From Hypomesus transpacificus (lineage: Eukaryota; Chordata; Actinopteri; Osmeriformes; Osmeridae), in the NCBI RefSeq assembly GCF_021917145.1, contig NC_061074.1, positions 13,683,772 to 13,747,771 on the forward strand: a DNA stretch of 64,000 nucleotides. The letters are read 5' to 3'. Positions 21,469-47,600 of this stretch are shown here, piece after piece. A model generated the notes under the pieces. The model saw nothing but the letters and a program-made list of their open reading frames with translations, was not told the DNA's origin and made no database searches. The position numbers and the translations under genes were made by a program. The number at the start of each line of letters is the position of its first letter. The first letter of the stretch is position 1.

Positions 21469-21475
21469 ATTCCAT

Positions 21476-22904: not shown

Positions 22905-23030
22905 TTATAAGAGTCTTAAATACAGTAGTACTTATTTACAAGTGCCTGTCTAGCAAGAGTAATTGTTCGCTTTCGTTTTATATCAACTGATATCAATATC
23001 TAGTGACCTGTCAAACAAAAGAACTCTGGT
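22905..23030 (+). promoter_or_regulatory. TATA-like box and non-coding first exon of OR D
   Basis: TTATAAGAGTC near 22905, then a leader with CTGTCTAGCAAGAG and TAGTGACCTGTCAAAC ending GAACTCTG at 23028, next to a GTGAGT donor. The acceptor TTTTACAG ends at 23421. Confidence 0.55.
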
Positions 23031-23425
23031 GAGTATGAGATAATTGTTTTTTTTTATTTATTTTTATTTCATAAAAAGTAAAAATACTCAATGAGAAAAA
23101 GCAAATCTACATTTATTCAGTGACTAACACCACAACACAAATAAATAAATAAAATAAATGTTTTCTCAAAATCCATGATATAAGAACATGGGGGTATATG
23201 AGTGGCACCTCGGAGATAGAGTTAAGGCCTAAATAATCTTAAATCTTCGCGTAGTTTCATAGGAATACTGATCTCTCATCTAGATAGCATACATCACAGT
23301 TGACAACTTTATAACACAAATTTCATACGTTGTTTTTCTCTGTCTATCTACATCCACATATGGTCAGTATACAATTGTTTCAATTCATTTACCAATATTT
23401 GTATTCTGGTATGTTTTACAGGACC

Positions 23426-24424
23426 ATGGAATTTAACAATAAATCAACATTTGTGGTTCAAGAAATCATAATTACAGGACTGGATGGTGTGCCATACCCC
23501 AAATTGGTTGGAGCAGCAATTCTATTTGTTCTTCTTTTCATTCTGCTTGGAAGTTTTACCAACATTGCTATAATTGTGTTCAACAGGCCACTGCATTCTC
23601 CTATGTACTTTTTGATTTGTACATTGGCAATGGTTGACATTATCTACACAAGTAGCATGAGTACTACTATGCTTAATGTACTCCTTGGAGAGGAGAGAAG
23701 AGTACAATTTTCCCTTTGCATTTTACAACATTTTTTATTTCATTTAGGTACAGCTATGGAGCCCCTTACCATTACTCTGATGGCTTTTGACCGACTTATA
23801 GCCATCTCATCCCCTTTAAGATATCACACTATCTTATCTAATAGGAATATTTTTGTGCTCATAGTAGGAATATGGTCAATAGGTATTATATGTTCAGGAC
23901 TATGGACTTCCATGGTGAACAATCTCCCTTTTTGTAAGTCAAATACAACCCCATACTCCTTTTGTGATTTTTCAGGACTGGTCAGAACAGCTTGTGTGGA
24001 TCCCAGAACGTATTTTAATATTGCGTCAACCATGCTGAACTGTTTGTTGTGGATGAATTTTTGCCTTATTATCGTATCATATATGAGGATAGTTTATGCA
24101 GTGTTGAAAATGCCTTCTACTATAGACAGGAAAAAAACATTTAATACCTGTATTTCTCATATTATAGTTGTAGCTTGCTTCTTTTTCTCAAAAATGGTGC
24201 TTTCAATGTCACAACTTTCAAATATTGGTTTTTCACTCACTTTTTCTAACAGAAATGCCCTTACTATTTGTTCCACACTTGGGCCTTCACTTGTAAACCC
24301 ATATGTTTATGGTCTTCAAACCAAGGAAATTCGAAAAAGACTAACAGATCTTTTCAACCCTCCTGTCATGCTCCGGTTGAATTGGACTGATTTAAACGTT
24401 TTCTCTCTGAAAAATAAATATTGA
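23426..24424 (+). CDS. Olfactory receptor D (group 1), intact
   Basis: A 332-residue receptor, start ATG 23426 (MEFNNKSTF) just after the acceptor; the open frame from 23330 is intronic upstream of it. It carries FNRPLHSPMYFLI, MAFDRLIAISSPLRYH, KTFNTCISHIIVVACFFF and GPSLVNPYVYGLQTKEIRKR. It belongs with E and F by the NRPLHSP signature rather than the NKHLHSP of A-C. The Y of SYPLRYH is S here. The C-terminal tail is distinct from A-C. Confidence 0.92.
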   Translation: MEFNNKSTFVVQEIIITGLDGVPYPKLVGAAILFVLLFILLGSFTNIAIIVFNRPLHSPMYFLICTLAMVDIIYTSSMSTTMLNVLLGEERRVQFSLCILQHFLFHLGTAMEPLTITLMAFDRLIAISSPLRYHTILSNRNIFVLIVGIWSIGIICSGLWTSMVNNLPFCKSNTTPYSFCDFSGLVRTACVDPRTYFNIASTMLNCLLWMNFCLIIVSYMRIVYAVLKMPSTIDRKKTFNTCISHIIVVACFFFSKMVLSMSQLSNIGFSLTFSNRNALTICSTLGPSLVNPYVYGLQTKEIRKRLTDLFNPPVMLRLNWTDLNVFSLKNKY

Positions 24425-24599
24425 TAATTGTCGTAAAATTCAGGGTGTTATATTAAACTTTTGTACAAATGTGTAAGACTTTAGTTGGTGCATGGAATTT
24501 AGCTCAGGCACCTGCCCATTCATCAGACCGGCACACTTCCTCTCCCAGATCCCGCTTGTGACGTAAATAACGTCAATAAGCTTCATATTTATTTTTGGA

Positions 24600-25180
24600 A
24601 CAGTGGCTGATACAGGGGCGTAGCCACGGGTACCCAATTTGTTTTAAGGACTTCCCAAAAAACGAAAATATCTCCGCAAAAAATTATGCACCTGCTGCAC
24701 ATCGCAAAGTGAATAAGTTTAAAACGAAAACCTATCCATACTTTTCTAGGCCTACCCCCCAAAAGAATTATGGGCTGATGTAACAAAAGTTTTAAATAAA
24801 ATGTCCAATTAGTTGAAGTATTGTACACGGCAGCAGGAACATAATTCTGAGCAAGGGGTGCTGGCGGGGGGAGGGATCAGGTCAGGCAGGAATGAGTGCC
24901 GATATAGACGCTTAATTTACAACATTGATTGCAGGGGATTGACTATGCGGAGTGCTTGTACGCTGTCCGTGGTGCTCATGGACAACCTTGTTACAAAATT
25001 AATATTAAAATAAAGAAAGTTGTCTGTTACAACGCTGAGACAGACACGGCTGCAGTTGCAGGCGAAACTGTTTATTAGTCCAGTAAACAAATCCGATACG
25101 ACAGGCAGGTTCAAAGCAGGGGCGTTGTTTGACATAAAGCTCTACTGGGGCACAGGCCCCTATTCATATCCCTTTTTTTT
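24600..25180. mobile_element. Probable degenerate hAT-type repeat remnants
   Basis: CAGGGGCGTAGCCACGG at 24613 and CAGGGGCGTTG near 25117 resemble hAT terminal repeats, but I find no matching inverted end or 8-base target duplication. The ORFs here have no recognisable domain. Read as decayed repeat DNA. Confidence 0.3.
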
Positions 25181-25970
25181 TCTTCCAAGCTTGCTGCGCA
25201 CAATGCACTACTCAGCTATACAAACTCCCATTGCTTAACCCACTAGAGCATGAGAAATTATTGAAACGCGTGAGTCTCACAGCGAATGCATGAGACATGA
25301 GAGCCCTGTAACCATTAAATATAAACTAAAGTTGTACAGGCCAGTGATTCACTGGTGGTTTTAAGATCTTGCACAAACACCTTCCAGAGTGTTCCCACCA
25401 ACTCCTGGCATGTGTTAAAAAACTTGGAAGGTGGCCATCCCTAAAATCTGAGTGACCAAGATCTTTAGTGCATAACTCGTGTTAATAGCCCTGTCTACTG
25501 CTGTGTGACCAGGCATTACCCTAGATGACATTCTGAAGACCTGTTGAAGTAAATTTCTCTAAGAAGTCATTTTGACAGTCCAGTTGAACCACGTGTCATT
25601 GTGAAGAAGACATACAGTATATATATATATGTGTGTATAATGTGCATAATCCATCAGGAAATGGATGAGACTGCTGTGTAACTTCATAAATTACTGATAT
25701 GTGTGAATCCTAGTATGTGATGGTTATTGCTCTGCGCGTCTATAGTAATTCAGTAGATCTGAATGCAAATGTGTGTGCCAGTAAGAGACAGTAGAGAGAG
25801 AAGGAAAGAGATACAAAAAGGGTGAATGAGTTAAAAGGGAGAGAGCATTTGTGTATGTGTGTCTGTGGAGGGGGTGAGGTGGGGTGGAGGAAGGCGAGAG
25901 TGCTTACTACAAGAGTCTTAAACATTTTAGATTTCATTTAGTGTCTTCCTGCCTGGCAAGATACATTTTT
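25180..25970 (+). promoter_or_regulatory. Upstream region of OR E
   Basis: No gene is visible in 25180-25730. From 25790 there is the group-typical GA-rich tract and GTGTATGTGTGTCTGTGG. GTGCTTACTACAAGAGTCTT follows, in the place where other group 1 genes have TATAAGAGTC; here the TATA is lost (TACAAG). Confidence 0.4.
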
Positions 25971-26022
25971 ACTTTACAACAGACCAAATAAAGTACTGTC
26001 AAACAGAAGAACTCTGATAAGT
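25971..26022 (+). promoter_or_regulatory. Non-coding first exon of OR E, donor destroyed
   Basis: The leader ends CAGAAGAACTCTG at 26016, as in the sister genes, but the donor reads ATAAGTATGAG instead of GTAAGTATGAG. The G-to-A change removes the invariant GT. Confidence 0.6.
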
Positions 26023-26339
26023 ATGAGATGCACTTATTTTCTGAAAGGTTGATGAAAAGACTAACAAGTATATATTAACTTTTTTTACTCAAGGTATATT
26101 TTATTTGGATAAGGTAAAAACATGGGACAGGCAGATGAAAGGTACTGAAGACTCCACAGCCATAATTTACTGAAAAGTGGAGGAAGAAGATGTGACTGTT
26201 AATACCTAGACACTCATACATATAATTTATAATAGTTTATTCGGAATAATGATCTCTAATTGAGACAACACATACAGTTTAGTATAGTTATTATACACTT
26301 TCTCGTTATTTTAGCTATATTTCGATTCTGTGATGTTTA

Positions 26340-26372
26340 CATGTAACAGGAGCATGGAGTCTAGCAATAATA
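26340..26372 (+). repeat. Short duplicate of the OR start region
   Basis: GTAACAGGAGCATGGAGTCT followed by AGCAATAAT mimics the acceptor plus start codon of the group 1 genes, 120-150 bases upstream of E's own start. It breaks off after about 30 bases and looks like a remnant of an earlier receptor exon or a local duplication. Confidence 0.5.
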
Positions 26373-26483
26373 GCATATATGCAATAGCTCAACTATGCAG
26401 CACACATTACAGTTGCTCATTTTCCAACACAATTTTAAATGTATTTTAAAAATGTGTTTCTTTTGTCATAATTTCACAGGACC

Positions 26484-27358
26484 ATGGAATCTAACAATAA
26501 ATCAACATTTGTGGTTCAAGAAATCATAATTACAGGCCTGGGTGGTGTACCATGCCCCCAAGTTGGTTGGATCAGCAATTATTTTAGTTCTTCTTCTCAT
26601 TCAGTTTGGAAGTTTTACCAACATTGCTATAATTGTGTTCAACAGGCCACTGCATTCTCCTATGTACTTTTTAATTTGTGCATTGGCGATGGTTGACATT
26701 ATCTACACAAGCAGCATGAGTTCTACTATGCTTAATGTCCTCCTTGGAGAGGAGAGAAGAGTACAATTTTCTCTTTGCATTTTAAAACACTTCATGTTTC
26801 ATTTAGGAACTCATATAGAGCCCCTCACTATTACTCTGATGGCTTTTGACCGATTAATAGCCATCTCATACCCTTTAAGATATCACACTATCTTATCTAA
26901 TAGGAATATGTTTGTGCTCATAGTAGGAATATGGACAGGAGGTAACATATTTTCAGGACTTTGGACTTCCGTAGTGAGCAGTCTCCCCTTTTGTAAGTCA
27001 AATAAATCTCCATACCCCTTTTGTGATTTTTCAGGACTGCTTAGAACAGCTTGTGTTGATCCCATAGTTTATGCTAGTTCTTTGTCAACAATGCTTAACT
27101 GTACTCTGTGGATGAATTTTGGCCTCATTGTAGTGTCATACATGAGGATACTTTATGCAGTGGTGAAAATGTCTTCCGCTACAGACAGGATTTTTTTTTT
27201 TGTACCTGTATATCTCATATTATAGTGCTAGCTTGCTTCTTTTTCAAAAAAATGGTGCATTCAATGTCACAAATTAGAACCCTAGGTCTGTCTCTCACCG
27301 TGACCCACAGAAATGGCCTTTCAATTGTTCTACTCTTGGACACTCACTTGTGAACCCT
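26484..27358 (+). pseudogene. Olfactory receptor E (group 1), pseudogene
   Basis: It starts like its sisters at 26484 (MESNNKSTF). An extra C near 26563 shifts the frame within the first 30 codons. The main body reads in the next frame from VPYPKL-like sequence through MAFDRLIAISYPLRYH to ATDRIF. A T-rich change near 27190 shifts it again, and the TM6-TM7 part follows with a further break near 27330. The gene ends abruptly at GTGAACCCTAG inside the NPYVYG motif, where unrelated repeat DNA begins. The broken leader donor and missing tail support loss of function. Confidence 0.92.
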
Positions 27359-28136
27359 AGTGCTGCACCTGTCATAGTCTCTCCACTGGACCCTGTCTCC
27401 ACAGCAGCCTCCATCTCTTTCCCTGTGTCAAAATCAAGACAATTGCATTTGAGCCACAGCACATTTATTATTTGAAGCCAAAAAACGTGCATATTTAGAT
27501 GAGTGCCTATTTCTCTTGGCCATTTCTATTACTTCATTTTAAATGTATAGCCTATATATTGGCTAACAGTAATATCAAATGTATAATGTTTTAAGAACAA
27601 TTAAGACAATATGGTTTGGAATGATATCTGAATTTTCTAATGTCGAAAATTACAGCAGCTTACAGCTACCTGCACCTGGCGCCTCTGGTACAGCCGCATC
27701 TTCGGGCTGCAAACTCTCTCCGTCTTTTGACAGCGTAAACATGTATTCTATACTTCTACATTGTGCAGCATATGCTTGCTGTGCCCGTTCTTTTTCTCCT
27801 TTTCCTTTCCATTTCTTTGCTAAAGAAACAACGATGTTAGCGAAAATAGCTCCAACGAATTGGTTGTACCCGGAAAACGATTGATTTTTGACCAATTGTG
27901 ATCTTTAAAATGGACGGACAAGTGCACCGTTCAAGTTTACACGGGGGAAATGCCCACCAATGATTTTGGATCGCTCCAGTTTAACAGTTGAATGGTATTA
28001 CTGTAAGGCCTTCCCTAAAAGTGAGCGTAAACTATTCGAATATTTTTTCTTGAATAGTGCTGTGGCCGTAGCGGCCGTTTGTTTGACCGGCCGTTCGGGA
28101 AATCTCCCGAGTCTCCCGATGGCCAGTCCGACCCTG
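27359..28136 (-). mobile_element. Probable hAT remnant truncating OR E
   Basis: The right edge ends GATGGCCAGTCCGACCCTG at 28136. Read in reverse it begins CAGGGTCGGACTGGCCATC, a form typical of fish hAT termini. The left terminus and target duplication are missing. An 81-codon frame on the minus strand (27650-27895) ends in a basic, QQAYAAQC-containing stretch that I do not recognise with confidence. The remnant starts exactly where E loses its last codons. Confidence 0.4.
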
Positions 28137-28198
28137 ACTTCAGGTGTAACTATAATATTGTTACTATGTATATCTGTTATAAATTACATGTCACCTTA

Positions 28199-29409
28199 CA
28201 GTTTTTCACAATTGCTAAAACACTAAACCCCATTCTCTGAATCAAATGGTCAGTGAACTAAACCAATTTGTCAAATCAGACACTCTTGGCAAAACTCTAA
28301 ACACATTCTCATTCACTAAACACATTTTGCACTGTGATGCACTTGTGCTGCAAAAAGGATTAACACAAGTTGCAAACAGTAAACACAACTACAACACAGT
28401 TGTCATCTGTAAAACACAATGACTCAAAAGTGTTCACACTTTTTTCTAATGCTGGTTTGGGACAATGCAAGCTTTCATTCGTGTCTGTGTACGAAAATAC
28501 TTCAACATCAAGCAGCATTTTTTATTGTGAATGTTTGCCTTCCACCATACAGCCCTTTTCTCGACCCAAATGAAGAGTTTTTCTCTGTGTGGTGGTGGAA
28601 GTTGTATGACTGAAACCCATATACCAGGGTAAATCTCCTACAGGCAATGGAATTGGCCTGTGGTGACATAGGTGTGGAGTGTTTTCATGGCTGGATCCAG
28701 CACACCAGAGGGTTTTTCTTTGTTCTTTGTTGACAGTACTAAGTTGTGATGGTTACTGTAATATTTTCAAATCAAACCAAATGTGCAGTATTTGTATAGC
28801 CCTTTTTACAAGCAATGTCACAGAGGGCTTCACATGCACCGATAGAACTGCCCCTCAGCCAACCTCAACCCTCAAGGAAGACTCTCAGAACAACTCACTA
28901 GAGGAGAAAAAAATGCAAGAAACCTTGGGAGGAGCAATTCAGTGAGGGATCCCCTCCTCCAGAGACGGTTGGCAAAAGAGAGGTGCAGAACACAGGCTAA
29001 ACATAGTCATACATCAGGAAAGTGTCAATGGGTGTTGAAACACCAAAATTCAGTGTTTCAAAATCCAAAATGCATTTTCTTTATTGCTGCGTAAATGCAT
29101 TTACTGTTTATACATGAACAAATTTGTCTTTACAAATAACTACATGGCCTGGATTCTGTGTTCTCCATTTTTTTGTGGTGTGTCTAATGATTGCTCCATA
29201 GTGTTTATATATTGATTGGTTGTGTTTATGATCTGAAAGCATGGTTTCATTTTGAACACAGGTTACATGGTTTAGGAGCGAGTGTTTGATTTTGCCAGAA
29301 GAGTCAGAGATTTGGGAAATTGAGTTTGAATATTGGGTTTTGTGTTTACAGTTTTGAGAAAAATGGTTGACTGTTTCAAGAAATGTGTTTTAGCAATCGT
29401 GAAAAACTG
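28199..29409 (+). mobile_element. IS630/mariner-like DNA transposon relic, copy 2
   Basis: Same terminal repeats as the copy at 7185-8237 (CAGTTTTTCACAATTGC at the left, TTTAGCAATCGTGAAAAACTG at the right), TA flanks and the same orientation. It keeps more transposase: a plus-strand stretch reading VWDNASFH, then FIVNVCLPPYSPFLDP and EEFFSVWWWKLYD. These hold the second Asp and the Glu of the DDE triad in a broken frame. Only the C-terminal third is left, so it is immobile. An extra block with ATGTGCAGTATTTGTATAGC near 28780, absent from copy 1, may be a further insertion. Confidence 0.85.
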
Positions 29410-29527
29410 TAATGTCAACAGTTATCAGGAGCCCCTAATGTGGGAGAAGCACAACAGAACCATGGGTTATTGGCGAGATACCACACCTTCTTGTAGTTTA
29501 TTGCTGTAAGAATGCACTCCCTCTAGT

Positions 29528-29632
<105 letters not shown>

Positions 29633-29659
29633 GGAAAAGAGGGAATGAGAGTGCACGTG

Positions 29660-29777
29660 TGTATGCGTTGCTTAAAGAGTCTCAAGCGTTATAGTATTTA
29701 TTCACAAGTGATTGTCTAGCAAGAGACATTCACATCATCAGAATAACTAGAGAACTGTCAAACAGAAGAACTCTGGT
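29660..29777 (+). promoter_or_regulatory. Promoter and non-coding first exon of OR F
   Basis: Leader with TTGTCTAGCAAGAGACATTC and GAACTGTCAAACAGAAGAAC ending CTCTG at 29775, then a GTAAGTATAAG donor. No clear TATA-like box remains (TTGCTTAAAGAGTCTC in its place). The acceptor CTTTACAG ends at 29948. Confidence 0.5.
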
Positions 29778-29952
29778 AAGTATAAGAACCGGTTTTAAAC
29801 AAAAGAAGTATGTACTGGATTAGTTCTTTTTTTTACTTATGGTAATATCCAAGAGGTAAGACCATACAACATAAAGATCCACATATGGTACAGTTAGTAT
29901 GCAATTGTTGCAATTTCACATACATTTGTATCCTGCCATGCTTTACAGGGCC

Positions 29953-30960
29953 ATGGAGTCTAACAATAAATCAACATTTATGGTTCAAGAAATCATCATT
30001 ACAGGACTGGATGGTGTGCCATACCCCAAGCTGGTTGGGGCAGCTATTCTGTTTGTTCTTCTTCTTATTCTGTTTGGAAGTTTTACCAACATTGCTATAA
30101 TTGTGTTCAACAGGCCATTGCATTCTCCAATGTACTTTTTGATTTGTACTTTGGCAATGATTGACATTATCTACACAAGCAGCATGAGTACTACTATGCT
30201 TAATGTCCTCCTTGGAGAGGAGAGAAGAGTACCGTTTTCACTTTGCATGTACCAGCACTTTTTTTTTCATTTAGGAACTGTTATGGAGCCCCTCACCATT
30301 ACTCTGATGGCTTTTGACCGACTAATAGCCATCTCATATCCTCTGAGATATAACACTATCTTAACTGATAGAAATATATTTCTGCTTATAGTAACAGTAT
30401 GGACAGGTGGTTGCACATGGTCTGGAGTTTGGACTTCTATAGTGAGCAGTCTCCCTTTTTGTAACTCAAATATAACTCCATACCCCTTTTGTGATTTTGC
30501 TGGCCTGGTCCGAGCAGCTTGCGTTGATCCCACAATTTATTTCAGTACAGCGTCAACAATGCTTAACTGTATTTTGTGGATAAATTTTAGTCTCATTGTT
30601 ATCTCATACATACGAATAGTTTATGCAGTGGTGAAAATGTCATCTTCTACGGATAGACAAAAAACATTTAGTACCTGCATTTCTCATATTACTGTTGTGG
30701 GTTGCTTTTTTTTCTCAAAAATGGTGCTTTCAATGTCACAAATTAGAACCCTTGGTGTGTCTCTCACCTTGGCCCACAGAAATGCCCTTTCTATTTGTTC
30801 TACTCTTGGGCCCTCACTTGTGAACCCATATGTCTATGGACTTCATACAAAAGAGATTAGAAACCGCCTCACACACTTAAAAAAAGACCCAAACCTCACA
30901 CACCCAAAAAGATTCAGCAATGTAGCTAACTCACTGGTTGGTTTCAATAAAACTAAGTGA
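29953..30960 (+). CDS. Olfactory receptor F (group 1), intact
   Basis: A 335-residue receptor, start ATG 29953 (MESNNKSTF), four bases after the acceptor; the open frame from 29899 runs through the intron. Motifs are NRPLHSPMYFLI, MAFDRLIAISYPLRYN, KTFSTCISHITVVGCFFF and GPSLVNPYVYGLHTKEIRNR. The C-terminal tail is longer and more basic (about 25 residues) than in A or D. The leader intron is the shortest of the group. It is the last of the tandem series and probably functional. Confidence 0.92.
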   Translation: MESNNKSTFMVQEIIITGLDGVPYPKLVGAAILFVLLLILFGSFTNIAIIVFNRPLHSPMYFLICTLAMIDIIYTSSMSTTMLNVLLGEERRVPFSLCMYQHFFFHLGTVMEPLTITLMAFDRLIAISYPLRYNTILTDRNIFLLIVTVWTGGCTWSGVWTSIVSSLPFCNSNITPYPFCDFAGLVRAACVDPTIYFSTASTMLNCILWINFSLIVISYIRIVYAVVKMSSSTDRQKTFSTCISHITVVGCFFFSKMVLSMSQIRTLGVSLTLAHRNALSICSTLGPSLVNPYVYGLHTKEIRNRLTHLKKDPNLTHPKRFSNVANSLVGFNKTK

Positions 30961-31270
30961 GCCATATTGTATTTTCAAAGAGTGACCCTTATCAAGTACT
31001 GTTGTTACTAATATGTTTACTAGCAACAAAATGTCTGGCAGTATTTTACGCATCTTCATAATTTATTATAATACCTAATAATGTCTAATGATTTAGAAGG
31101 TTCTCTTTCGTCGAGAAATGAAACGAGACTCAGCCTGCAAACGGCAGCTAAAGCTAGTTCTGGTTTTATTAGTCTCTGGCTGTTCTTCTCTGCAATTGAA
31201 AGATACATTCTCAACGTTTAGAGATCAGTAGACTGAGTTGGCCATCATAAAGTAATTTTGATTCAATTTA
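30961..31270. other. Boundary between group 1 and group 2 receptors
   Basis: No gene seen. A CG-containing stretch at 31105-31200 (CGAGAAATGAAACGAGACTC) looks like repeat DNA of unknown family. Confidence 0.4.
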
Positions 31271-31692
31271 ATGGGATTTTCCAAATACATATTTTATATA
31301 TATTTAATATTTCAGACTCTATTTGCATTTTATCATTCTTAAACTTTCAATCGTTTGATGTTGTTCTAATGGGTTTAAATAAATGTTTTTGGTTTACCGT
31401 CCCCTTTCCTGCAGTAATCCCACCTTGTCCAATCGCCATGTTAAGCAGGTCATGAGTCATGCTTGATTAGTTAGATAATTAATGGGATTATCCAAATACA
31501 TATTTTATATATATTTAATATTTCAGACTGTATTTGCATTTTATCATTCTTAAACTTTCAATCGTTTGATGTTGTTCTAATGGGTTTAAATAAATGTTTT
31601 TGGTTTACCGTCCCCTTTCCTGCAGTAATCACACCTTGTCCAATCGTCATGTTACTGTAAGCAGGTCATGAGTCATGCTTGATTAGTTAGAT
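31271..31692 (+). repeat. Tandem duplication (about 211 bp) in the promoter of the first group 2 OR
   Basis: 31271-31477 and 31482-31692 are near-identical head-to-tail copies (TTCCAAATACATATTTTATA through CAGGTCATGAGTCATGCTTG). The second copy has five extra bases (CTGTA) near 31660. Both lie directly upstream of a TATA box and non-coding exon, so any promoter element in the unit is present twice. Each copy ends with GATTAGTTAGAT, which resembles a homeodomain site. Confidence 0.9.
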
Positions 31693-31706
31693 GGTGTCCA
31701 GGACCA

Positions 31707-31772
31707 CATATAAACAAGAGCCAAATTAGGAGGCAATTCTCAGCATTAGCAGTGATAAGCATCACTAGAGGT
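31707..31772 (+). promoter_or_regulatory. TATA box and non-coding first exon of the first group 2 OR
   Basis: CATATAAACAAG at 31707, then a leader ending CATCACTAGAG at 31770 with a GTAAGC donor. The acceptor TGATTCACAG ends at 31990, 21 bases before the ATG. Confidence 0.6.
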
Positions 31773-32011
31773 AAGCATAGATTAATGGTTCTTTTTTTCT
31801 TCTTCTATTGGACAACATAAAAACATATATACCATAGTTTTAGAAAACGCATAAACATTTCTTTGATTTTATGTACAGTATTACGACATACACATTACAT
31901 TTTATTGAATGCTAAATTACAAAATTGTGCATGTATATTTAAATAAAACATTTTTGTGTGACAAGTTTGTTTTTGATATCTGATTCACAGGCTTTTTAAT
32001 ATATCATCACC

Positions 32012-32989
32012 ATGTCCCAAGGAAATGACAGTGCTGTGAGTGAGTTTTTAATTGTTGGTTTTCCTGGACTTCTTCCTGAGTACTACAGCCTTGCCTCATC
32101 TGTTTTATTCTTTGTTTATCTATGTACATTATTTGGAAACAGCCTTATTCTTGTCTTAATTGCAACTGATCGAGCCCTCTATAAACCTATGTATTTCATT
32201 TATATAAATTTAGTTGTGTCTGACATTCTCTTCAGCACAACCACTTTACCAAAGATCATCGCCAAATATTTGTTTCAAGCAGGAGCCATATCATTCACAG
32301 CTTGTTTTATCCAGATGTACTTTGTACACTATTTTGGTTCGGTAAACTCCTTAATTCTATTCCTCATGGCTTTAGATCGCTATTTGGCCATCTGTTACCC
32401 ACTTAGATACCCAAGTATGATGAAAAACTCCACCATTCTCATCATCAGTATCACTTCATGGGTTTTGGCTAAAGTTGGCCCTTTAATGATTGTGATTAGA
32501 GCCTATCCTCTTCCATACTGCTCCTCCAACAGAATCATACAGTGCTACTGTGATCACATCTCTATAACAACGCTTGCCTGCACCAATAGAGCCCCTTATA
32601 GTATTCCTGCTTTTATCACAGCTATGATTTATCTGCTTGCGCCTCTGGTCTTCATAGCATTCTCCTACAGCTCTATTATTGTGGCAGTTCTAAGGATCCG
32701 AAGCACCCAAGGACGTAACAAAACCCTCTCTACCTGCAGTGCTCAGCTGATCATCATTGCCCTTTATTATGTACCCAGGTGTTTTGTTTATCTGGCCAGC
32801 AATGTTGGACTTACAATCAGCACTGATGTACGTATCTTAATCATCATGTTGTATAGTCTGATTCCTCCTATGATAAACCCACTTATATACTGTTTTAGGA
32901 CTAGAGACATTAGAGAGTCTTTAATAAAAAGGTTCAAGAGGTCAACATCTCCACAAGCAGGTAATATCTCTTTTGTATGCAACTCCTGA
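32012..32989 (+). CDS. Olfactory receptor, group 2, copy 1, intact
   Basis: A 325-residue odorant receptor in one coding exon, start ATG 32012 in the context ATCACCATGTC. Motifs are an N-terminal NDS glycosylation site, FLIVGFPGLLPEY, TM1 LFGNSLILV, TM2 YKPMYFIYINLVVSD, MALDRYLAICYPLRYP, TM6 KTLSTCSAQLIIIALYYVPR and TM7 PPMINPLIYCFRTRDIRES. It keeps a standard DRY, unlike group 1, and is a different OR family. The protein is identical to copy 2 at 34018, but its promoter and leader exon differ from those of copy 2. Confidence 0.95.
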   Translation: MSQGNDSAVSEFLIVGFPGLLPEYYSLASSVLFFVYLCTLFGNSLILVLIATDRALYKPMYFIYINLVVSDILFSTTTLPKIIAKYLFQAGAISFTACFIQMYFVHYFGSVNSLILFLMALDRYLAICYPLRYPSMMKNSTILIISITSWVLAKVGPLMIVIRAYPLPYCSSNRIIQCYCDHISITTLACTNRAPYSIPAFITAMIYLLAPLVFIAFSYSSIIVAVLRIRSTQGRNKTLSTCSAQLIIIALYYVPRCFVYLASNVGLTISTDVRILIIMLYSLIPPMINPLIYCFRTRDIRESLIKRFKRSTSPQAGNISFVCNS

Positions 32990-33669
32990 TGATTATTGTC
33001 ACTGTATTGAATGTATTATATCGAGGCTTATGTTTTTATGATGTACATGGTTGATATGCAGAAAATTAAATGTTCAAGCTTAAAACTGTAACTTCATTTG
33101 TAATTCATTGATCTTGTTATATTCTGTCCTTTGTCACAGCCTCAGAGCTGGGTATGTAACAAAGATGACATACAAAAAGCGCATGAATAAAAAGTACAGC
33201 AGAAAATCCAACATCAGAAATGTATAGTTCTAACATTATTTTTGTGGTTGGAGTCAAGGAAAAGTCTGTATATACCAGGCACAGTACAAAGTAACCATAT
33301 CTCAGCTATCAGCACAGGGCAACAATAATGATATCTCAACTACAGTGCATTATATCAACATCAATATTACACGGGACAAAGCTGTATAAACGTAATGTCT
33401 TAGGTGCACATTAAACAGTTTTGTGCATATGTATTTGCACATGGAGGATATATTTTAACTGGGGAAGCTGGGATATCCAGGCATGAGGTTATTCCATCTG
33501 TCCCTTTCTATCATGAACCCATCATATAACTGACACCACAAGCAAGCACAGTGTAGAAAGTTTGGTCGTGAACTTCACAATGGAGGATTTCATAATTCTC
33601 TAGGGTATTAATGTAGTTTGTCATTCGAGGCAGAAAGCATTAATTAGAGATCAGGCCCAGTACACAGTG

Positions 33670-33734
33670 AGGATGCAGATAAAAACCACACACCTCTTCA
33701 TCTCTACAGCAGAGGACAGCATCAGACATTCAGG
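33670..33734 (+). promoter_or_regulatory. Probable promoter and leader exon of group 2 copy 2
   Basis: GCAGATAAAAACCACACACC acts as a TATA-like region, followed by a leader to GACATTCAG and a possible GTGCTC donor at 33733. The same block recurs at 35676-35740 before copy 3 and at 39096-39160 before the fourth gene, where the donor reads GTACTC. Confidence 0.4.
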
Positions 33735-34017
33735 TGCTCTAAGCTTTTGATTCAAAGTATTTACAGTTGTGTCAATATAGAATAGTCTAGTCTGATGTAT
33801 AAGATTTTACAGTACGTGTCATGTAGAAAGTAGTAACCATTTTCTGTATCAGTCATAGTTGACTAGTCCTACGAACCAAAAACTGTTATAACGTTATTTA
33901 GAGGTTAAATCGTTTACATTAATATAGAGTTCTGAATTTATAACTGTAGAAGATGAGCTAACTCGTGTACTGTTTTTGAAATCCGATTCACAGGCTTGTT
34001 TGTAATATATCATCACC

Positions 34018-34995
34018 ATGTCCCAAGGAAATGACAGTGCTGTGAGTGAGTTTTTAATTGTTGGTTTTCCTGGACTTCTTCCTGAGTACTACAGCCTTGC
34101 CTCATCTGTTTTATTCTTTGTTTATCTATGTACATTATTTGGAAACAGCCTTATTCTTGTCTTAATTGCAACTGATCGAGCCCTCTATAAACCTATGTAT
34201 TTCATTTATATAAATTTAGTTGTGTCTGACATTCTCTTCAGCACAACCACTTTACCAAAGATCATCGCCAAATATTTGTTTCAAGCAGGAGCCATATCAT
34301 TCACAGCTTGTTTTATCCAGATGTACTTTGTACACTATTTTGGTTCGGTAAACTCCTTAATTCTATTCCTCATGGCTTTAGATCGCTATTTGGCCATCTG
34401 TTACCCACTTAGATACCCAAGTATGATGAAAAACTCCACCATTCTCATCATCAGTATCACTTCATGGGTTTTGGCTAAAGTTGGCCCTTTAATGATTGTG
34501 ATTAGAGCCTATCCTCTTCCATACTGCTCCTCCAACAGAATCATACAGTGCTACTGTGATCACATCTCTATAACAACGCTTGCCTGCACCAATAGAGCCC
34601 CTTATAGTATTCCTGCTTTTATCACAGCTATGATTTATCTGCTTGCGCCTCTGGTCTTCATAGCATTCTCCTACAGCTCTATTATTGTGGCAGTTCTAAG
34701 GATCCGAAGCACCCAAGGACGTAACAAAACCCTCTCTACCTGCAGTGCTCAGCTGATCATCATTGCCCTTTATTATGTACCCAGGTGTTTTGTTTATCTG
34801 GCCAGCAATGTTGGACTTACAATCAGCACTGATGTACGTATCTTAATCATCATGTTGTATAGTCTGATTCCTCCTATGATAAACCCACTTATATACTGTT
34901 TTAGGACTAGAGACATTAGAGAGTCTTTAATAAAAAGGTTCAAGAGGTCAACATCTCCACAAGCAGGTAATATCTCTTTTGTATGCAACTCCTGA
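34018..34995 (+). CDS. Olfactory receptor, group 2, copy 2, intact
   Basis: 325 residues, identical in protein to the gene at 32012 and apparently identical in DNA. The acceptor GATTCACAG ends at 33993 before ATG 34018. The upstream DNA, which belongs to the duplicated 3' flank of copy 1, is a different promoter from that of copy 1. Two genes encoding the same receptor under different upstream regions could be chosen by separate neurons. Short reads cannot tell the two apart. Confidence 0.93.
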   Translation: MSQGNDSAVSEFLIVGFPGLLPEYYSLASSVLFFVYLCTLFGNSLILVLIATDRALYKPMYFIYINLVVSDILFSTTTLPKIIAKYLFQAGAISFTACFIQMYFVHYFGSVNSLILFLMALDRYLAICYPLRYPSMMKNSTILIISITSWVLAKVGPLMIVIRAYPLPYCSSNRIIQCYCDHISITTLACTNRAPYSIPAFITAMIYLLAPLVFIAFSYSSIIVAVLRIRSTQGRNKTLSTCSAQLIIIALYYVPRCFVYLASNVGLTISTDVRILIIMLYSLIPPMINPLIYCFRTRDIRESLIKRFKRSTSPQAGNISFVCNS

Positions 34996-35675
34996 TGATT
35001 ATTGTCACTGTATTGAATGTATTATATCGAGGCTTATGTTTTTATGATGTACATGGTTGATATGCAGAAAATTAAATGTTCAAGCTTAAAACTGTAACTT
35101 CATTTGTAATTCATTGATCTTGTTATATTCTGTCCTTTGTCACAGCCTCAGAGCTGGGTATGTAACAAAGATGACATACAAAAAGCGCATGAATAAAAAG
35201 TACAGCAGAAAATCCAACATCAGAAATGTATAGTTCTAACATTATTTTTGTGGTTGGAGTCAAGGAAAAGTCTGTATATACCAGGCACAGTACAAAGTAA
35301 CCATATCTCAGCTATCAGCACAGGGCAACAATAATGATATCTCAACTACAGTGCATTATATCAACATCAATATTACACGGGACAAAGCTGTATAAACGTA
35401 ATGTCTTAGGTGCACATTAAACAGTTTTGTGCATATGTATTTGCACATGGAGGATATATTTTAACTGGGGAAGCTGGGATATCCAGGCATGAGGTTATTC
35501 CATCTGTCCCTTTCTATCATGAACCCATCATATAACTGACACCACAAGCAAGCACAGTGTAGAAAGTTTGGTCGTGAACTTCACAATGGAGGATTTCATA
35601 ATTCTCTAGGGTATTAATGTAGTTTGTCATTCGAGGCAGAAAGCATTAATTAGAGATCAGGCCCAGTACACAGTG

Positions 35676-35740
35676 AGGATGCAGATAAAAACCACACACC
35701 TCTTCATCTCTACAGCAGAGGACAGCATCAGACATTCAGG
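35676..35740 (+). promoter_or_regulatory. Probable promoter and leader exon of group 2 copy 3
   Basis: Identical to the block at 33670-33734: TATA-like GATAAAAACC, then a leader ending GACATTCAG before GTGCTC. The coding-exon acceptor GATTCACAG ends near 35998. Confidence 0.4.
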
Positions 35741-36021
35741 TGCTCTAAGCTTTTGATTCAAAGTATTTACAGTTGTGTCAATATAGAATAGTCTAGTCTG
35801 ATGTATAAGATTTTACAGTACGTGTCATGTAGAAAGTAGTAACCATTTTCTGTATCAGTCATAGTTGACTAGTCCTACGAACCAAAAACTGTTATAACGT
35901 TATTTAGAGGTTAAATCGTTTACATTAATATAGAGTTCTGAATTTATAACTGTAGAAGATGAGCTAACTCATGTAGTTTTTGAAATCCGATTCACAGGCT
36001 TGTTTTTATTTTATCATCACC

Positions 36022-36999
36022 ATGTCTCAAGGAAATGACAGTGCTGTGAGTGAGTTTTTCATTGTTGGTTTTCCTGGACTTCTTCCTGAGTACTACAGCC
36101 TTGCCTCATCTGTTTTATTCTTTGTTTATCTATTTACATTAGTTGGAAACAGCCTTATTATTGTCTTATTTGCAACTGATCGAGCCCTCCATAAACCTAT
36201 GTATTTTATTTATTTAAATTTAGTTGTGTCTGACATTCTCTTCAGCACAACCACTTTACCAAAGATCATCGCCAAATATTGGTTTCAAGCAGGAGCCATA
36301 TCATTCACAGCTTGTTTTATCCAGATGTACTTTGTACACTATTTCAGTACCGTAAACTCCTTAATTCTATTCGGCATGGCTTTAGATCGCTATTTAGCCA
36401 TTTGTTACCCACTTAGATACCCAAGTATAATGAAAAATTCTACCATTCTCATTATCAGTATCACACCATGGGTTTTGTCTGAAGTTGGCCCTTTAATGAT
36501 GGTGATCAGAGCCTATCCTCTTCCATATTGCTCCTCCAACAGAATCATACAGTGCTACTGTGATCACATCTCTATAACAACGCTTGCCTGCACCGATAGA
36601 GCCCCTTATAGTATTCCTGCTTTTATCGTAGCTATGATTTATCTGCTTGCGCCTCTGGTCTTCATAGCATTCTCCTACAGCTCTATTATTGTGGCAGTTC
36701 TAAGGATCCGAAGCACCCAAGGACGTAACAAAACCCTCTCCACCTGCAGTGCTCAGCTGATCATCATTGCCCTTTATTATGTACCCAGGTGTTTTGTTTA
36801 TCTGGCCAGCAATGTTGGACTTACAATCAGCACTGATGTACGTATCTTAATCATCATGTTGTATAGTCTGATTTCTCCTATGATAAACCCACTTATATAC
36901 TGTTTTAGGACTAGAGACATTAGAGAGTCTTTAATAAAAAGGTTCAAGAAATCAACATCTCCACAAGCAGGTAATATCTCTATTGTATGCAATTCCTGA
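36022..36999 (+). CDS. Olfactory receptor, group 2, copy 3, intact
   Basis: 325 residues, start ATG 36022. An in-frame ATG at 35980 would add 14 residues, but it lies before the acceptor GATTCACAG and is intronic. It differs from copies 1 and 2 at a couple of dozen residues, for example LVGNSLIIVLFATDRALHKP, KYWFQAG, HYFSTVNS and GMALDRYLAIC, while the C-terminal third is almost identical. That uneven pattern suggests gene conversion of the 3' half or selection on the ligand-facing half. All core motifs are intact. Confidence 0.94.
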   Translation: MSQGNDSAVSEFFIVGFPGLLPEYYSLASSVLFFVYLFTLVGNSLIIVLFATDRALHKPMYFIYLNLVVSDILFSTTTLPKIIAKYWFQAGAISFTACFIQMYFVHYFSTVNSLILFGMALDRYLAICYPLRYPSIMKNSTILIISITPWVLSEVGPLMMVIRAYPLPYCSSNRIIQCYCDHISITTLACTDRAPYSIPAFIVAMIYLLAPLVFIAFSYSSIIVAVLRIRSTQGRNKTLSTCSAQLIIIALYYVPRCFVYLASNVGLTISTDVRILIIMLYSLISPMINPLIYCFRTRDIRESLIKRFKKSTSPQAGNISIVCNS

Positions 37000-37323
37000 T
37001 GATTATTGTCACTGTATTGAATGTATTATATGGAGTCATATATTTTTATGATGTACGTACATGGTTGATATGCAGAAAACGATATCTGTTCAAACTGTTC
37101 ATTTGTTATTCATTGATCTTGGCATATTCTGTCCTTTGTCTGAGCATCAGAGCTGGGTATGTAACAAAGATGACATACAAATAGTGCATGAATAAAAAGT
37201 ACAACAGAAAATCCAAAATCAGAAATGTATAATTCAAATGTTATTTTTGTGGTTGTAGTCAAGGAAGAGTCTGTATTTACCAGGCACAGTACAAAGTAAC
37301 CACATCTCAACTATCAGCACAGG

Positions 37324-38725
37324 CAGGGCCGTACGCAGGCCCCAAAAAATACTGAGGTCATGAGTCAGAACTTCTAGGCGGGTTCGGGGGCATGCTCCCC
37401 CGGATTTTTTTTAAATTACATTATTTAAATATGGCCATTTTCTCTTATTGAGTCTTAAGGAGCAAAAACATCATCATTATGACATTTCAATATGGGGCGG
37501 TGTGGAGCTTTTGAAATTTTGAGGTAAACATGGGGCATTCTGAGGCTTTTTGAAGGACCTTTATGGGACTCATGAAGTAAGGGCAAGTTACCACAATTTT
37601 TTTTAAATTATTATTATATGGCAACGACGGTACGAGCGTTTTGATTGGATAACGGGTAGTCACCCCAGCGTGTTGCCCTCCTCGCCGGTCAATACGGATC
37701 CGTATTGCCCTCTGACGTCAGCTTCAAAATGAGCGATATCGACGAGTCAGCTGCTGAGTTTTACTATCCAGATGATGCTGAAAAGCTTTGTCATCGAAAG
37801 TGAGGATGAAGACCAGACTCTTTGAATCACTTGTGTCGTTATTTTGTGATGAAATTAAAGCCATTTTAGCAGAACCATGTTGTCCGCTTTCTATCAAAAG
37901 TAATGAGTTGCTTGGCAACACATGAAACACACCGTGAGAAGACTTAAGAGCTAGCTACAATTAGCCTAAAGGTACCATTTATTTTCGTTTACAAAATGAA
38001 AAGAATCTAAAATTGCCATATAATAAACTACTTACTAACCTCGACCGTTCGGTCATGCCGGGAAATATCAAACTGAGGCTGGAACGTATCGACCGAGCGA
38101 TAGCGAGTCAGTTTGATATTTCCCAATTGCCACTGAATTTCATTTTCAATCAATCACATCAATGACATATCATATCAATCGCAAAATGAATGTTGATTCA
38201 ACCGGTGGAAATTGATTGACCACCGGTACAGTACTGACGGAGTTAACCAAACTTTGATTTGATGTTTCCTTATCTGAGTAGTACGCTGCTGCAATACAAT
38301 ATTTCCACATGAAAATGAATCTTTCTTCTCACAGTCATCTGCCACTTAAACTTCTCTTAACCTACATGTTTAGTTTGCTGCGCTCCTCTTCCAGTGACTG
38401 TAACTAACATAGGCTATTCACTAACAGTAGCGGTATGTCTATGGCGGTAACATCAGCGTCCGACTTGTGTTTGGTGGTTACCATAACGACAGTACGTTTT
38501 GTTGATGACGCGCAGCACATATGTCCAAACTCTTGAGCTACTCGGCTCTTCAAGTATAAAATCACGTTACGGTTTGTGGGAGACCAAGATCATCGTCCTG
38601 CAGTCAGTTTCACGTGTACTTTATTTTGAGTTTATATACCACGATTTAAGCAAAAAAAAAACAGAAATACGAAAAAAAATACCGAGGACACGACCTCGGT
38701 GTCCTCAATGGTAGTTACGGCCCTG
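37324..38725. mobile_element. Non-autonomous hAT transposon with 8-bp target duplication
   Basis: The ends are CAGGGCCGTACGCAGG and GTAGTTACGGCCCTG, flanked on both sides by AGCACAGG. An 8-base target duplication and CAGGGCCG ends are hallmarks of the hAT superfamily. The element is 1,402 bases long and has no transposase frame. An internal hairpin pairs GGGAAATATCAAACTGA near 38070 with its complement near 38108. The empty site is visible in the paralogous DNA at 33310 and 35316 (AGCACAGGGCAACAATAATG), so the insertion came after those flanks duplicated. Confidence 0.92.
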
Positions 38726-39330
38726 AGCACAGGGCAACAATAATGATATCTCAACTACAGTGCATTGATAATATATCAACTACAATATTACATGGTACAA
38801 AGCAGTATAAACGTAATGTCTTAGGTGCAACATGGAACAGTTTTGTGCATATGTATTTGCACATAATATGTTTTAACTGGGGAAGCTGGGTTATTCAGGT
38901 ACAGGGCTATTTCAACTGAACCTCTCTATATATTCATTAACCCATAATATGACTGACACCACAAGCAAGCACAGTGTAGAAAGTTTGGTCTTGAACTGCA
39001 CAATGGAGGATTTCATCATTCTCTAGGGTATTAATGGAGTTTGTCATTCGAGGCAGTAACCATTCATTAGAGATCAGGCAAAGTGCACAGTGAGGATGCA
39101 GATAAAGACCACACACCTCTTCATCTCTACAGCAGACGACAGCATCCGACATTCAGGTACTCTAAGGTTTCAATTCAAAAGCATTTACAGTTGTGTCAGC
39201 ATAGAATAGTCTAGCCTGATGTAACAATACGTGTCATGTACAAAATAGTAACTATTTCATGTATCAGTTACAGTTGACTAGTCCTAAGAACCAACAACTG
39301 TTATAACATTATTTAGAGGTTTAATATTTT
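38726..39330 (+). repeat. Continuation of the group 2 OR flank and promoter block
   Basis: Matches 33316-33905 and 35322-35910 after the hAT. It includes the TATA-like GCAGATAAAGACC near 39096 and a leader ending GACATTCAG next to GTACTC at 39157. Confidence 0.8.
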
Positions 39331-39539
39331 GATTAATATAGACTTCTGGATTAACATTTGTAGAAGAGGAGCAAACTTCTCTACATTAAATTTATTTTAA
39401 CAAAAGAAATGTCACCAACATTTTGAGTGCAGCTTGAGGAAGGATTCTAATTTATATTCTCAACTATTCATATTCCTTACTGACAAGTAACAACTATACA
39501 AGCATTTATTGAGTGGTGCACAGAATTGTCATTCCGAGC

Positions 39540-39585
39540 ATGAATTAACTTTGCATGCTGAATCTGATCTCCTTTGCAGGTAAGA
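39540..39585 (+). promoter_or_regulatory. Possible non-coding exon end of the fourth group 2 OR
   Basis: ATCTCCTTTGCAGGTAAGAT near 39569-39588 offers a strong GTAAGAT donor after CAG. It could end a leader exon of the gene at 39928, or be a tiny internal exon, since CAG is also an acceptor. Confidence 0.35.
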
Positions 39586-39927
39586 TATAACTTTTCAAGC
39601 TTTTTGAAGATTGAAGCATTTCAACTAAACTAATTTCAACAACTAAAAGGGGGTTTAAGGATTGTCTGTACTTCAGAGATTTATTCCAAATGACTTAAAC
39701 ATCAGAGAGAGAAATCTGAGAGAATTGTAGAGATACAAATGTGTACAAACCTGTTAAAACATTTAGCTTTAGGATTAAGAAGAAAGGAAGATTTTTTTGT
39801 CAATGTATCTACATCTGCTTTCAACTAACAATACAACAAGAAAAGTAACATCTGTAAATCTTGCACTTCTAAGGTCATATTGTATGCTGTGGAGATTGAA
39901 GAATTCTTGATTTATTTTAAACCAGTC

Positions 39928-40863
39928 ATGGTCCTCACCAATGTCACAACTATTACACATTTCAATATATTGGGGTTCCCAGGACTTCTGCCTCAGTATT
40001 TTGGCCCAGTGTCAGCACTTCTTTTCTTTGTCTACTTAGCAATCATGACAGGAAACATCTTCATCTTGATTTTTGTAGTATATGAGAGAAGTCTTCATAA
40101 ACCAACATATCTGATTTTCTGTCACCTTGCTGTGTCAGACCTAGCATTTGGAACCGTGACACTGCCTAAAATCATATCCAGATATTGGTTGGAAGACGAG
40201 ATAATTTCTTTCTATGAATGCTTTGCACAGATGTACTTTGTCCATTTCTTAGGAGCTGCCCATTCTTTCCTTCTTATGATTATGGCCCTTGATCGTTTTG
40301 TTGCCATATGTAATCCATTACGATACTCAGTTGTGATAAACAACATTAGCATTTCTGTTCTGTGTGGGATATGTTGGCTCCTTGCAATGTCATTTATGAT
40401 ACCAGTCGTTTTACTTGCCCTCCCTCTGCCCTACTGTGACTCAAATATTATTTCACAATGTTACTGTGATCATACTGCAATAGTAAGACTTTCATGTACA
40501 TACAGCAGCCTTGTTAGTAATGTTACAAAGACTCTCGCAATGTTTAGTCTTCTGGGGCCTCTCACATTCATATTGTTTTCCTATGTTAACATCATTATAT
40601 CTGTCCTGAGAATGTCTAAAACTGGTGGGTCCTACAAAGTGTTCTCTACCTGCACTTCACAGCTCTTTATTATCTGCCTTTACTACCTTCCCAGATTGGT
40701 TCTGTATCTGGGAGTTGTAATCAGTCAAAATGTCCGTGTTGTTGTCATTATGCTTTATAGTCTGGTTCCTGCTTTTGTTAATCCAGCCATTTATTGCTTT
40801 AAGACGAAGGAAATTAAAGAGCTGTTGATAAAGAGACGGAAAAACTATAAACATTGGTATTGA
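39928..40863 (+). CDS. Olfactory receptor, group 2-related, intact
   Basis: A 311-residue receptor from ATG 39928 ([19 protein letters not shown]), chosen because the glycosylation site NVT then sits at residues 5-7, as in typical ORs. The in-frame ATG at 39880 would add 16 unusual acidic residues. Motifs are [15 protein letters not shown] in TM2, [16 protein letters not shown] (DRF instead of DRY), [20 protein letters not shown] in TM6 and [19 protein letters not shown] in TM7. It is clearly related to the 32-37 kb genes ([23 protein letters not shown]) but much more diverged. It is the last OR before the cadherin gene. Confidence 0.92.
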
Positions 40864-41220
40864 TATAAAAATGTTCCATTAATGCATTATGTACGGCTTT
40901 CTAAACATCATATGTATGTAAATATAACCGGTGGTTGATGATGGTCCTGGAACATGAACCAAAGGACTTAAATAAATAAATATCTAATATTAATTAAATA
41001 ATTGTGCCATTGTGTACACATGCACTAGTCTGGCGGATTAAATCAAAACTATCCAACCAAATGCTTTTGAGTGTAAATTGTAGGATGGTATCTGTGAGTC
41101 ACCTATAGACATTATATGTTCTCATTTCAATGTATTGAGTCGTCTAGGTACTCTCTTTATTCTCTCTCAAAATGTTTTACTGGCTGTGCTTGCCATATTC
41201 TTTATCATATATCGTGATCC

Positions 41221-44648: not shown

Positions 44649-47600
44649 TCATATGATTTCTTCCTGGTCACTCTGCATGTTACAATCATGTTTTAGAGCA
44701 GAAGGCAAACCTGCAATGTCCTCAAACACATGAGCATAGGTCTCAAACTGCAGGCTCATGTTCAGTAAGTTTTCCCACTGTTGAACGCCCCCACATACAG
44801 TCTCTGTCCTGCTAAGGGCATTTGATTGGAAGGTGTCATGAACAGGAAATATGTCGGGCTCTCTGGAGTTGTATGTCCATTCACACACAATGCCCTTAGA
44901 ATTACTGGGAAGAAACTCTGTTTCAGACTCCAACTTAATTTCCTCCAGAGGAGAGTTCAACCTCCTGACTTCCTCCACTGACAGGCCCAGAGGGGGTGAC
45001 ATGAACCCTGGGAACCTTTCGAAAAAGTGAAGCTTTTCCACCTCTCCAGACTCACAATCTAGAAGATTCAGCAGCCCATCCCAGTCCACATCTTGTCTTG
45101 TATTTTGGGGGACGAAAGGATTCAAATTTAGCTGTGATTTTTGCCACATGTCCAGTGGTTTGTCCCTGCTGTCTTGGCTTGGCAGGGGTCCTGGTAGGGC
45201 TGGTTGACAGAACCCTGTCCACCTTGCCTCTGTCCTGTCATAGTGTGTGTTGTGGGTGTGTCCATGCCAGCTGAGTCTGACAGACGCCATGTCTGAATGG
45301 CTGTAGTTGCTGTCTATCTCGTAGTACTCCAGAACACCAGACTGCAGGCTTTGGAGGCAAGCCTCACTATAGCACCCCACACCCAGCCTCTGACTGTCAG
45401 CCCCAATAACATCAGGTGGTTCACTGACATCCTTCACAAGAGTGTTGTCACTGTCAGAGAACGCTTGGTTGTCTGCCCCCTGCTCTCTCCTTAGTGGGCT
45501 GTTGCCATGGCAGCTCTCCTGACACCCACTGCTGGCACTCTGCCGCTTCAAGGTGATGAAGAGGCACAAGAGGAGCAGGAGGCAGGTCACAGGGACAACC
45601 ACGGCTAGGATCCACAGAGGCGTGCTCTGCTGGGGCTCAGAAAAACAGCCATGACGGTTCTGGAGCAGCGAAGGGCAGACATCACACTCCACAGCGCTGG
45701 CATTGTGTAAACAGATGCAGGACATGTTGCTCCTTATAAGCTCCCCACAGTCTCTACCTGTCTCACACGACACTGAATGGCAAGGCCTCATGGTAGCGCT
45801 ATTTGTGTCCGTACAGTGTGAGGGAACACAGCTGGCCTGAGACACACAAGTGGGCTGGGTCAAAGTTGAACTGGGCCAGGCCTCCACCATCTCACTGGTT
45901 CCACTGACAGGTAAAAGGTAGCCAGGTACTCTGAAGTATGCCACACATCCGGAAAACCCTGGAGATTAGATCAAACTCATCATATCGAAACAACAATCAA
46001 CAAAATAACTACACAAAACTAATTATAGTCCCTTAATCTGTTTGCATTAAAAAATGCCATGTAAAACATGTGTATTCCCACCTGGCTGCAGCAGCTCTCT
46101 TGCAATCCCAGGTGGAACTGCCCCCAGCACCATCTTCTCCACATTGACAGGAGTCAGGTCAAGTGTTCCATTGGTGGTGTTCATAGACAGCTGTTCATCA
46201 ATGGTGATGATGGTGTTGTGTCCTTCTCTGTACAGGTGAAGGACATGCCAAATCCCATCTGCCACAGGAGGGTTTACAGTGATCTCTGACAGATCTCCTG
46301 ACCTGCTGTCTATGGACATGTACTGGAGCTGTCCATCCACTATCTAAAAGTTCCAAAACAGTATATCCAGATTAGTTCCAGCTGGAAAAGGCAGTATGGT
46401 GTATTATCACAAACATACATGGGAACAAACATACATGGGAAAATGCTTACCTTAAGCACGGTATGTCTTATTCTTCCAAGTACAAACACCAACACTCCAT
46501 CATTATTAATAGTCTTAATCTTGACTTCAATCTCTGAAAAGACTCGTCTGATTTTTTCCTTAGTACTGTGTGTGTTTAGCAGGTCTCTTAGCTGAACATT
46601 TCTTCTGTAACTCTCCCGAATGCCATACGCGATATAGCCATTTCCATTCAGGCGCAAAACATGCTCTTCTGAAACGACTACAGAAATGCATGTGGTCAAT
46701 TCCAAGCTAACCAAGTAGCTATTAATGTTAGGGTTTAGGATATGTGTAGCTCACTAGAGCAGAAGATACCTGTGGCACAACTGGCTCCAGTGTAGCTGTT
46801 TCTACAGTAGCAGAGGTAGTGAGACCACATGTCTTGACAAGCGCCTCCATTTTTACAGGGACTGCTGTCACAGGGGGAAACGGCATCTCGTGGACAGCTA
46901 GAACAACAGGCAAAACAATGTGGAATACGGGTACAGGAGGGAGACATATGTCTAGGGTGACATGGGTCGTAAATCAAGCTTACCTCTGGAGGATGTTAAA
47001 TGTTGCCAGGGCCTTGGAGCGCACCAGAGGTATTCCGTTCACTTTTACATTTCTGAGGCATCCAACAAAGTCATGAGACTGGATGTGCGTAGGGTTCTGC
47101 AGTATTGACTCTATAGACCTGACACCTCCCAATGACATGTTACTGGCCCCATCCAGAGTCCTACAAAACAAAAAGGAAGAGGGAGCAAAAGGACTGTGGA
47201 ACATCTAGTACAAAGTCAAAATGTACTTTTACCTTACCAGTACCAGACCAGTCCCTGAACAGTACCTTTGTGAGCTAATGCCTTCATTTTGGGAGAAACA
47301 AAATCCATTGGCTTCAATGTCTGTGCAGCTGTCCACTTGCAAAGAGCCTATCTGTAAAACACATATATCAATGTGTGTGTGTACATACTATAAAATACTA
47401 TATACTGTGGGCGTGTGGTACTCACATTGCCGATACGCCTGGCAGTGATGCTGTGAAAACGGCCGTCAGCCACCTGCTTCTTGGTCTCCAGCCTCACTAG
47501 GCCTGAGCCCAGGTTGTAGGAGAGCCGTGCTCTCCCCCCCAGTAGCTCCAGAGCCAGGAACTCTACACTGAGGGGGCTGCCAGGGTTGAACAGCAGCAGA

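Follow-up and report, generated by a model that had tools for sequence, protein, structure and literature searches.

Tandem duplication and gene conversion are established in vertebrate olfactory receptor (OR) clusters, as outlined in a review (PMC1995454) and in a description of the zebrafish repertoire (PMC1325023). For recent OR duplicates of the mouse it is reported that the duplicated stretch can take in the promoter region, and the same source describes an enrichment of TATA-like boxes close to start sites among the promoters of mouse ORs (PMC3247239). Receptor swaps in the mouse, such as M71>P2 and M71/M72, place a receptor in another locus and are reviewed as alleles that separate the effect of the receptor from the effect of the locus (PMC8394594). 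The OR array of Hypomesus transpacificus described here resembles the clusters outlined in the first two sources in that close paralogues stand head-to-tail on one strand (PMC1995454, PMC1325023). Unlike the clusters as outlined there, its copied unit is a gene together with its downstream DNA, and the copies therefore differ from the first gene upstream. Two of its genes, B and C, fit the promoter-including duplicates reported from the mouse, whereas A and B, unlike those duplicates as reported, have the same coding sequence and unrelated upstream regions (PMC3247239). The mouse swaps were engineered (PMC8394594), while the arrangement here would be natural. Among the listed titles and abstract openings of open-access literature on identical receptors, promoters and conversion, we found no description of such an arrangement.

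We analyzed a window of 64,000 nt from contig NC_061074.1 (GCF_021917145.1), and all coordinates refer to this window. Three units, each made of a gene and its flank (IG), stand ahead of a fourth gene, D (Table 1). Self-comparison placed A, B and C head-to-tail on the same strand with spacings of 2006 and 2004 and, together with alignment, located IG 3' of A, B and C and 5' of B, C and D. Unit C draws on the second flank copy just as B draws on the first, and a third, interrupted copy in two parts (37000-37323 and 38734-39377) lies in front of D. A first-pass annotation of this DNA had described one receptor under two control regions. The upstream regions are indeed unrelated; the description is incomplete because the pair sits in an array of three gene-plus-flank units before D, which had been overlooked.

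Table 1. Features of the receptor array, with coordinates in the window.
Feature	Coordinates	Strand	Evidence
Two-copy ~211-bp tandem repeat, part of P1, upstream of gene A	31268..31692	+	TRF
Core of P1, with the CATATAAAC box and a candidate leader exon that ends in CACTAGAG, followed by GTAAGC	31707..31770	+	predicted
220-bp 5' intron of A	31771..31990	+	predicted, GTAAGC..CACAG
Identical block copy 1 (gene A + IG1)	31997..33964	+	0 differences/1,968 bp
Gene A, olfactory receptor, 325 aa	32012..32989	+	ORF; Pfam 7tm_4 E=1.6e-56
IG1: 3' flank of A and candidate promoter/leader exon/5' intron part of B	32990..33964	+	
38-bp junction before gene B	33965..34002	+	alignment; 31-mer uniqueness in window
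Identical block copy 2 (gene B + IG2)	34003..35970	+	0 differences vs copy 1
Gene B, same 325 residues as A	34018..34995	+	ORF, alignment
IG2: second flank copy, 3' of B; candidate promoter/leader/5' intron for C	34996..35970	+	
Gene C, olfactory receptor, 325 aa	36022..36999	+	alignment to A/B
IG3: third flank copy, lying 3' of C; candidate promoter for D	37000..39377	+	
1,402-bp insert in IG3	37324..38725	.	terminal repeats + target duplication
Gene D, olfactory receptor	39928..40863	+	ORF, Pfam

Receptor coding is contained in one ORF per gene, and the leader exons are predicted from splice signals alone. The olfactory receptor profile 7tm_4 was matched over its full length by A (192.6 bits), C (199.4) and D (179.1), all above the Pfam cut-off of 27. 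The best match among solved structures was consensus OR52 (8hti, E=1.9e-60), which confirms the receptor family and nothing more, and an Rfam scan of 30900-41000 returned no match at the gathering score. C differs from A and B at 38 of 978 nucleotides (3.9%) and at 21 of 325 residues. Between A and C, three methods gave a dS of 0.058-0.071, and dN was about 0.03; D has 49% protein identity with A. Of the coding differences between A and C, 32 lie in the first 608 bp, 2 in the 320 bp that follow and 4 in the final 50. The stretch with few differences (32620-32939 against 36630-36949, 2 of 320 bp) reached a permutation p of 0.0006 with two differences allowed, and 0.0098 and 0.14 in the stricter tests allowing one or none; it hints at an older partial conversion with C.

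Other features surround the array. A second OR array of six copies occupies 12935-30960; the four of its six copies that were compared have 27-30% protein identity with A, and those near 20578 and 26472 have shortened ORFs. At least its first three copies have upstream DNA in common. Here 18011-20347 is 93% identical to 14729-17052, and 16409-17201 is 90% identical to 12146-12911. By these alignments the upstream region moves with the gene in at least those pairs, unlike in A and B. On the minus strand, reverse-transcriptase-like ORFs at 10521-11848 presumably belong to a LINE-type element, and what we take to be a large Fat-like cadherin gene lies beside the receptor cluster at 44649-54319.

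Compared base by base, 31999-33964 and 34005-35970 showed no mismatch in 1,966 bp. The exact identity is slightly longer, with 31997-33964 equal to 34003-35970 over 1,968 bp at an offset of 2,006. Genes A and B are intact ORFs encoding the same 325 residues. These results bear out two claims of the first-pass annotation, namely that the genes at 32012 and 34018 encode the same 325 residues and that about 2 kb matches at a constant offset of 2,006. Because the 95% upper bound on the divergence of the two blocks is 0.0015, the event behind their identity is recent by this measure, whichever mechanism produced it.

Upstream of the blocks the two copies had been described as different, and they share just ~27 bp there, at the intron acceptor. 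We compared 31000-31996 with the window by word-7 blastn (E up to 0.01, low-complexity filter on). Apart from itself, this region matched two things: the tandem repeat that it contains, and 26-27 bp around the intron acceptor in B and C. Beyond these, the search found no likeness between the upstream region of A (P1) and upstream DNA elsewhere in the window. Between the upstream regions of A and C, the shared piece at the acceptor is 26 bp at 92%. The box CATATAAAC assigned to copy 1 was found at 31707 and nowhere else in the window, and CACTAGAG followed by GTAAGC is likewise present once; the minus strand of the window holds no match to either box string, CATATAAAC or GATAAAAACC. A tandem-duplicated promoter had also been proposed for copy 1. 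The two-copy repeat of ~211 bp is real, its copies (31268-31476 and 31479-31692) differing in 9 of 214 columns, but the box is not part of it and stands just downstream.

The IG flank carries a TATA-like box and a candidate leader exon with its donor. Its box GATAAAAACC is present in both of the first two flank copies (33678 and 35684), with predicted donors at 33734 and 35740, in agreement with the earlier statement that copy 2 takes its upstream DNA from the duplicated 3' flank. The counterpart box before D is GATAAAGACC, at 39101. A, B and C have the acceptor GATTCACAGGC in common (31982, 33985 and 35989). Their donors differ: CACTAGAG followed by GTAAGC occurs once in the window and GACATTCAG followed by GTGCTC twice, and GTGCTC, the IG donor, is further from the usual splice consensus than the GTAAGC of A. 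The predicted spliced leaders of A, B and C contain no upstream ATG, and their introns contain 4, 3 and 4. Splicing as predicted would join the leader end at 31770 to 31991 in A, 33733 to 33994 in B and 35739 to 35998 in C, and the 21-24 nt that separate the predicted acceptor from the ATG are different in each of the three.

IG1 and IG3 differ by 97 substitutions at 951 aligned sites (10.2%) and by 10 gap events. In self-BLAST the distal part of IG3 was 86% identical over 668 columns, and the proximal part 92% over 226 bp. Extra conservation around the box and leader of IG was not found: the 121 bp there contained 13 events (0.107/bp), compared with 107 over 974 bp, and a narrower stretch of 81 bp, running from the box to the donor, contained 5 (0.062/bp). 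Permutations reached the observed lowest-window value in 135, 242 and 122 of 300 cases for windows of 100, 150 and 200 bp. With no excess conservation at the box and leader, constraint lends no support to a promoter function of IG. We also scanned for motifs using consensus strings, allowing up to two mismatches for O/E and taking expectations from shuffles. The O/E-like pattern YTCCCNRRGRR was counted 0, 5 and 4 times in P1, IG1 and IG3 (expected 3.2, 2.7 and 2.3). For TCCCNNGGGA the counts were 0, 6 and 4 (expected 1.2, 1.3 and 1.6), all of them two-mismatch matches, each palindromic site being counted once per strand. TAATTA gave 2, 2 and 0 (expected 1.0, 0.5 and 0.3), each pair being both strands of one site, and a fifth pattern, with its K position opened to N, gave 7, 2 and 3 (expected 3.1, 1.2 and 1.3). 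These scans are not informative, and we draw no inference from the counts. Given this and the absence of excess conservation, it is the layout that suggests IG to be a promoter.

The third flank copy carries a 1,402-bp insert with 10-bp inverted ends (CAGGGCCGTA) and an 8-bp target duplication (AGCACAGG) on both sides. Transposons of the hAT type typically have short terminal inverted repeats and are flanked by a target site duplication of 8 bp, and we take the insert to be hAT-like. Absent from IG1 and IG2, it sits in the candidate promoter region of D, ~380 bp upstream of the box there.

How might such an array have arisen? The divergence of IG is similar to the silent divergence between A and C, and the coding sequence of D is far older, which argues that IG moves together with the gene that precedes it; on these comparisons the repeated unit is the gene plus IG. 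Likeness of IG3 to IG1 stops at 39377 (corresponding to 33963), inside the predicted intron of D. A-type likeness starts at 33971 (corresponding to 31968), at the end of the intron of A. The ends of the two parts lie a few bases from each other, and since both fall in predicted introns, the fusion would have taken place within introns. IG was probably the promoter of D originally. We lean towards an account in which the ancestral order was P1-A-IG-D, with IG containing the promoter, leader exon and first 5' intron part of D. An old tandem duplication, with one breakpoint inside the A-type gene's 5' intron and the second inside the intron of D, would have put the promoter and leader of D before a second A-type receptor, and a further duplication would have given B and C. 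The leader-intron layout would have kept the fusion spliceable, with leader and donor of D type and an acceptor of A type. A plus IG1 and B plus IG2 would later have become identical, through gene conversion or through an expansion of the array with a subsequent contraction, leaving behind a 38-bp junction of B's own.

This junction has a 30-bp run in common with the junction of C, whereas the DNA in front of A is unlike it. Three differences set it apart from that of C: G/A at 33965, an indel of 2 bp at 33970-33971, and G/T at 34002. In the alignment, the bases of B at 33965 and 33971 (the second indel base) equal those of A, so the changes there are not strictly private to B; those at 33970 and 34002 match neither A nor C. 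Bases 33966-33968, between the first two differences from C, are C-like, and a single switch from C to A therefore accounts for none of the three changes. By chance, three new changes would all fall within 38 of 2,006 bp with a probability of 6.8e-6, and two events matching neither neighbor (33970 and 34002) would fall in 38 bp with 3.6e-4, both tests having been chosen post hoc.

The strongest alternative, which we nevertheless regard as unlikely, is a single, very recent tandem duplication in an array of A, C and D only, through unequal crossing-over of the 5' end of A with that of C, with the odd changes in the junction arising during repair or as a patchwork of both parental sequences. It fits the complete identity on both sides and the borders of the identical blocks, which coincide with the unit junction. 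That coincidence is a counter-point to homogenisation; a single duplication explains the borders without it and more simply. The 26 bp at 92% common to A and C at the acceptor could have been the crossover site, and the bases at 33965 and 33971 equal those of A. Against it stand the bases at 33970 and 34002, which match neither parent, and the C-like bases 33966-33968 lying between differences, next to 1,968 bp without any. An identity tract of 0 differences in 1,968 bp beside a junction with its own changes could also be the picture left by a mutagenic crossover. As the junction changes are not explained by one crossing-over, B probably predates the homogenisation of A and B.

False duplications are a topic of the literature on genome assemblies, and complete identity over such a length is a usual sign of an assembly artefact. 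A and B are wholly identical over 1,968 bp, while their neighbor C differs by 3.9%, and the exact identity or the copy number could thus reflect collapsed, over-polished or falsely repeated units. The first-pass annotation had named an assembly duplicate as the alternative to its own reading, and it is still the main one to that reading. We consider it improbable. All 68 of the 31-mers of the junction are found nowhere else in the window, so the junction is no simple copy of other window DNA and a purely invented second copy becomes less likely. The junction also joins IG to an A-type start and, if present in reads, implies at least two tandem units; the window, moreover, is free of any N. A unique junction may still be compatible with further collapsed copies or with erased small differences.

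A further alternative concerns the origin of IG and is compatible with any of the other explanations. IG could have been the original promoter of all four genes, lost from A when P1 moved in, as would suit its position before three of the four. To us this seems a shade less probable again than an artefact, because the age of D far exceeds that of the IG copies (49% amino acid identity against 10% IG divergence) and D would have to gain IG separately, so that one or more additional events are needed. Chance similarity of A and B is ruled out by 0 differences in 1,968 bp.

On the account that we favor, with capture of the promoter of D in a 5' intron of a gene-plus-IG array and later homogenisation of A and B, the array is ordinary gene-cluster evolution of a known kind, with a probable and instructive promoter capture. 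It suggests that a duplication whose breakpoints fall in 5' introns is a simple route to the control region of a neighbor. A combines P1 with receptor 1, B combines IG with receptor 1, and C combines IG with receptor 2. By alignment, the upstream DNA of B and C is identical over 1,968 bp except for the last ~50 bp before the ATG, and A and B have the same receptor. Promoter capture in the 5' intron may thereby, as we tentatively propose, have set up a natural comparison within 6 kb, of promoters between A and B and of receptors, differing by 21 residues, between B and C. If all the promoters work, A would be chosen under P1, B as the same receptor under IG, and C as a 21-residue variant under IG. 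Should both promoters be in use, two independently chosen sets of neurons would express one receptor, and whether their axons converge on one glomerulus and whether the neurons lie in the same epithelial zone would directly separate the roles of the receptor protein and of the promoter. If sequencing reads confirm it, the array would be a handy natural experiment, in which receptor identity and promoter identity become separable in receptor choice and axon targeting without engineering.
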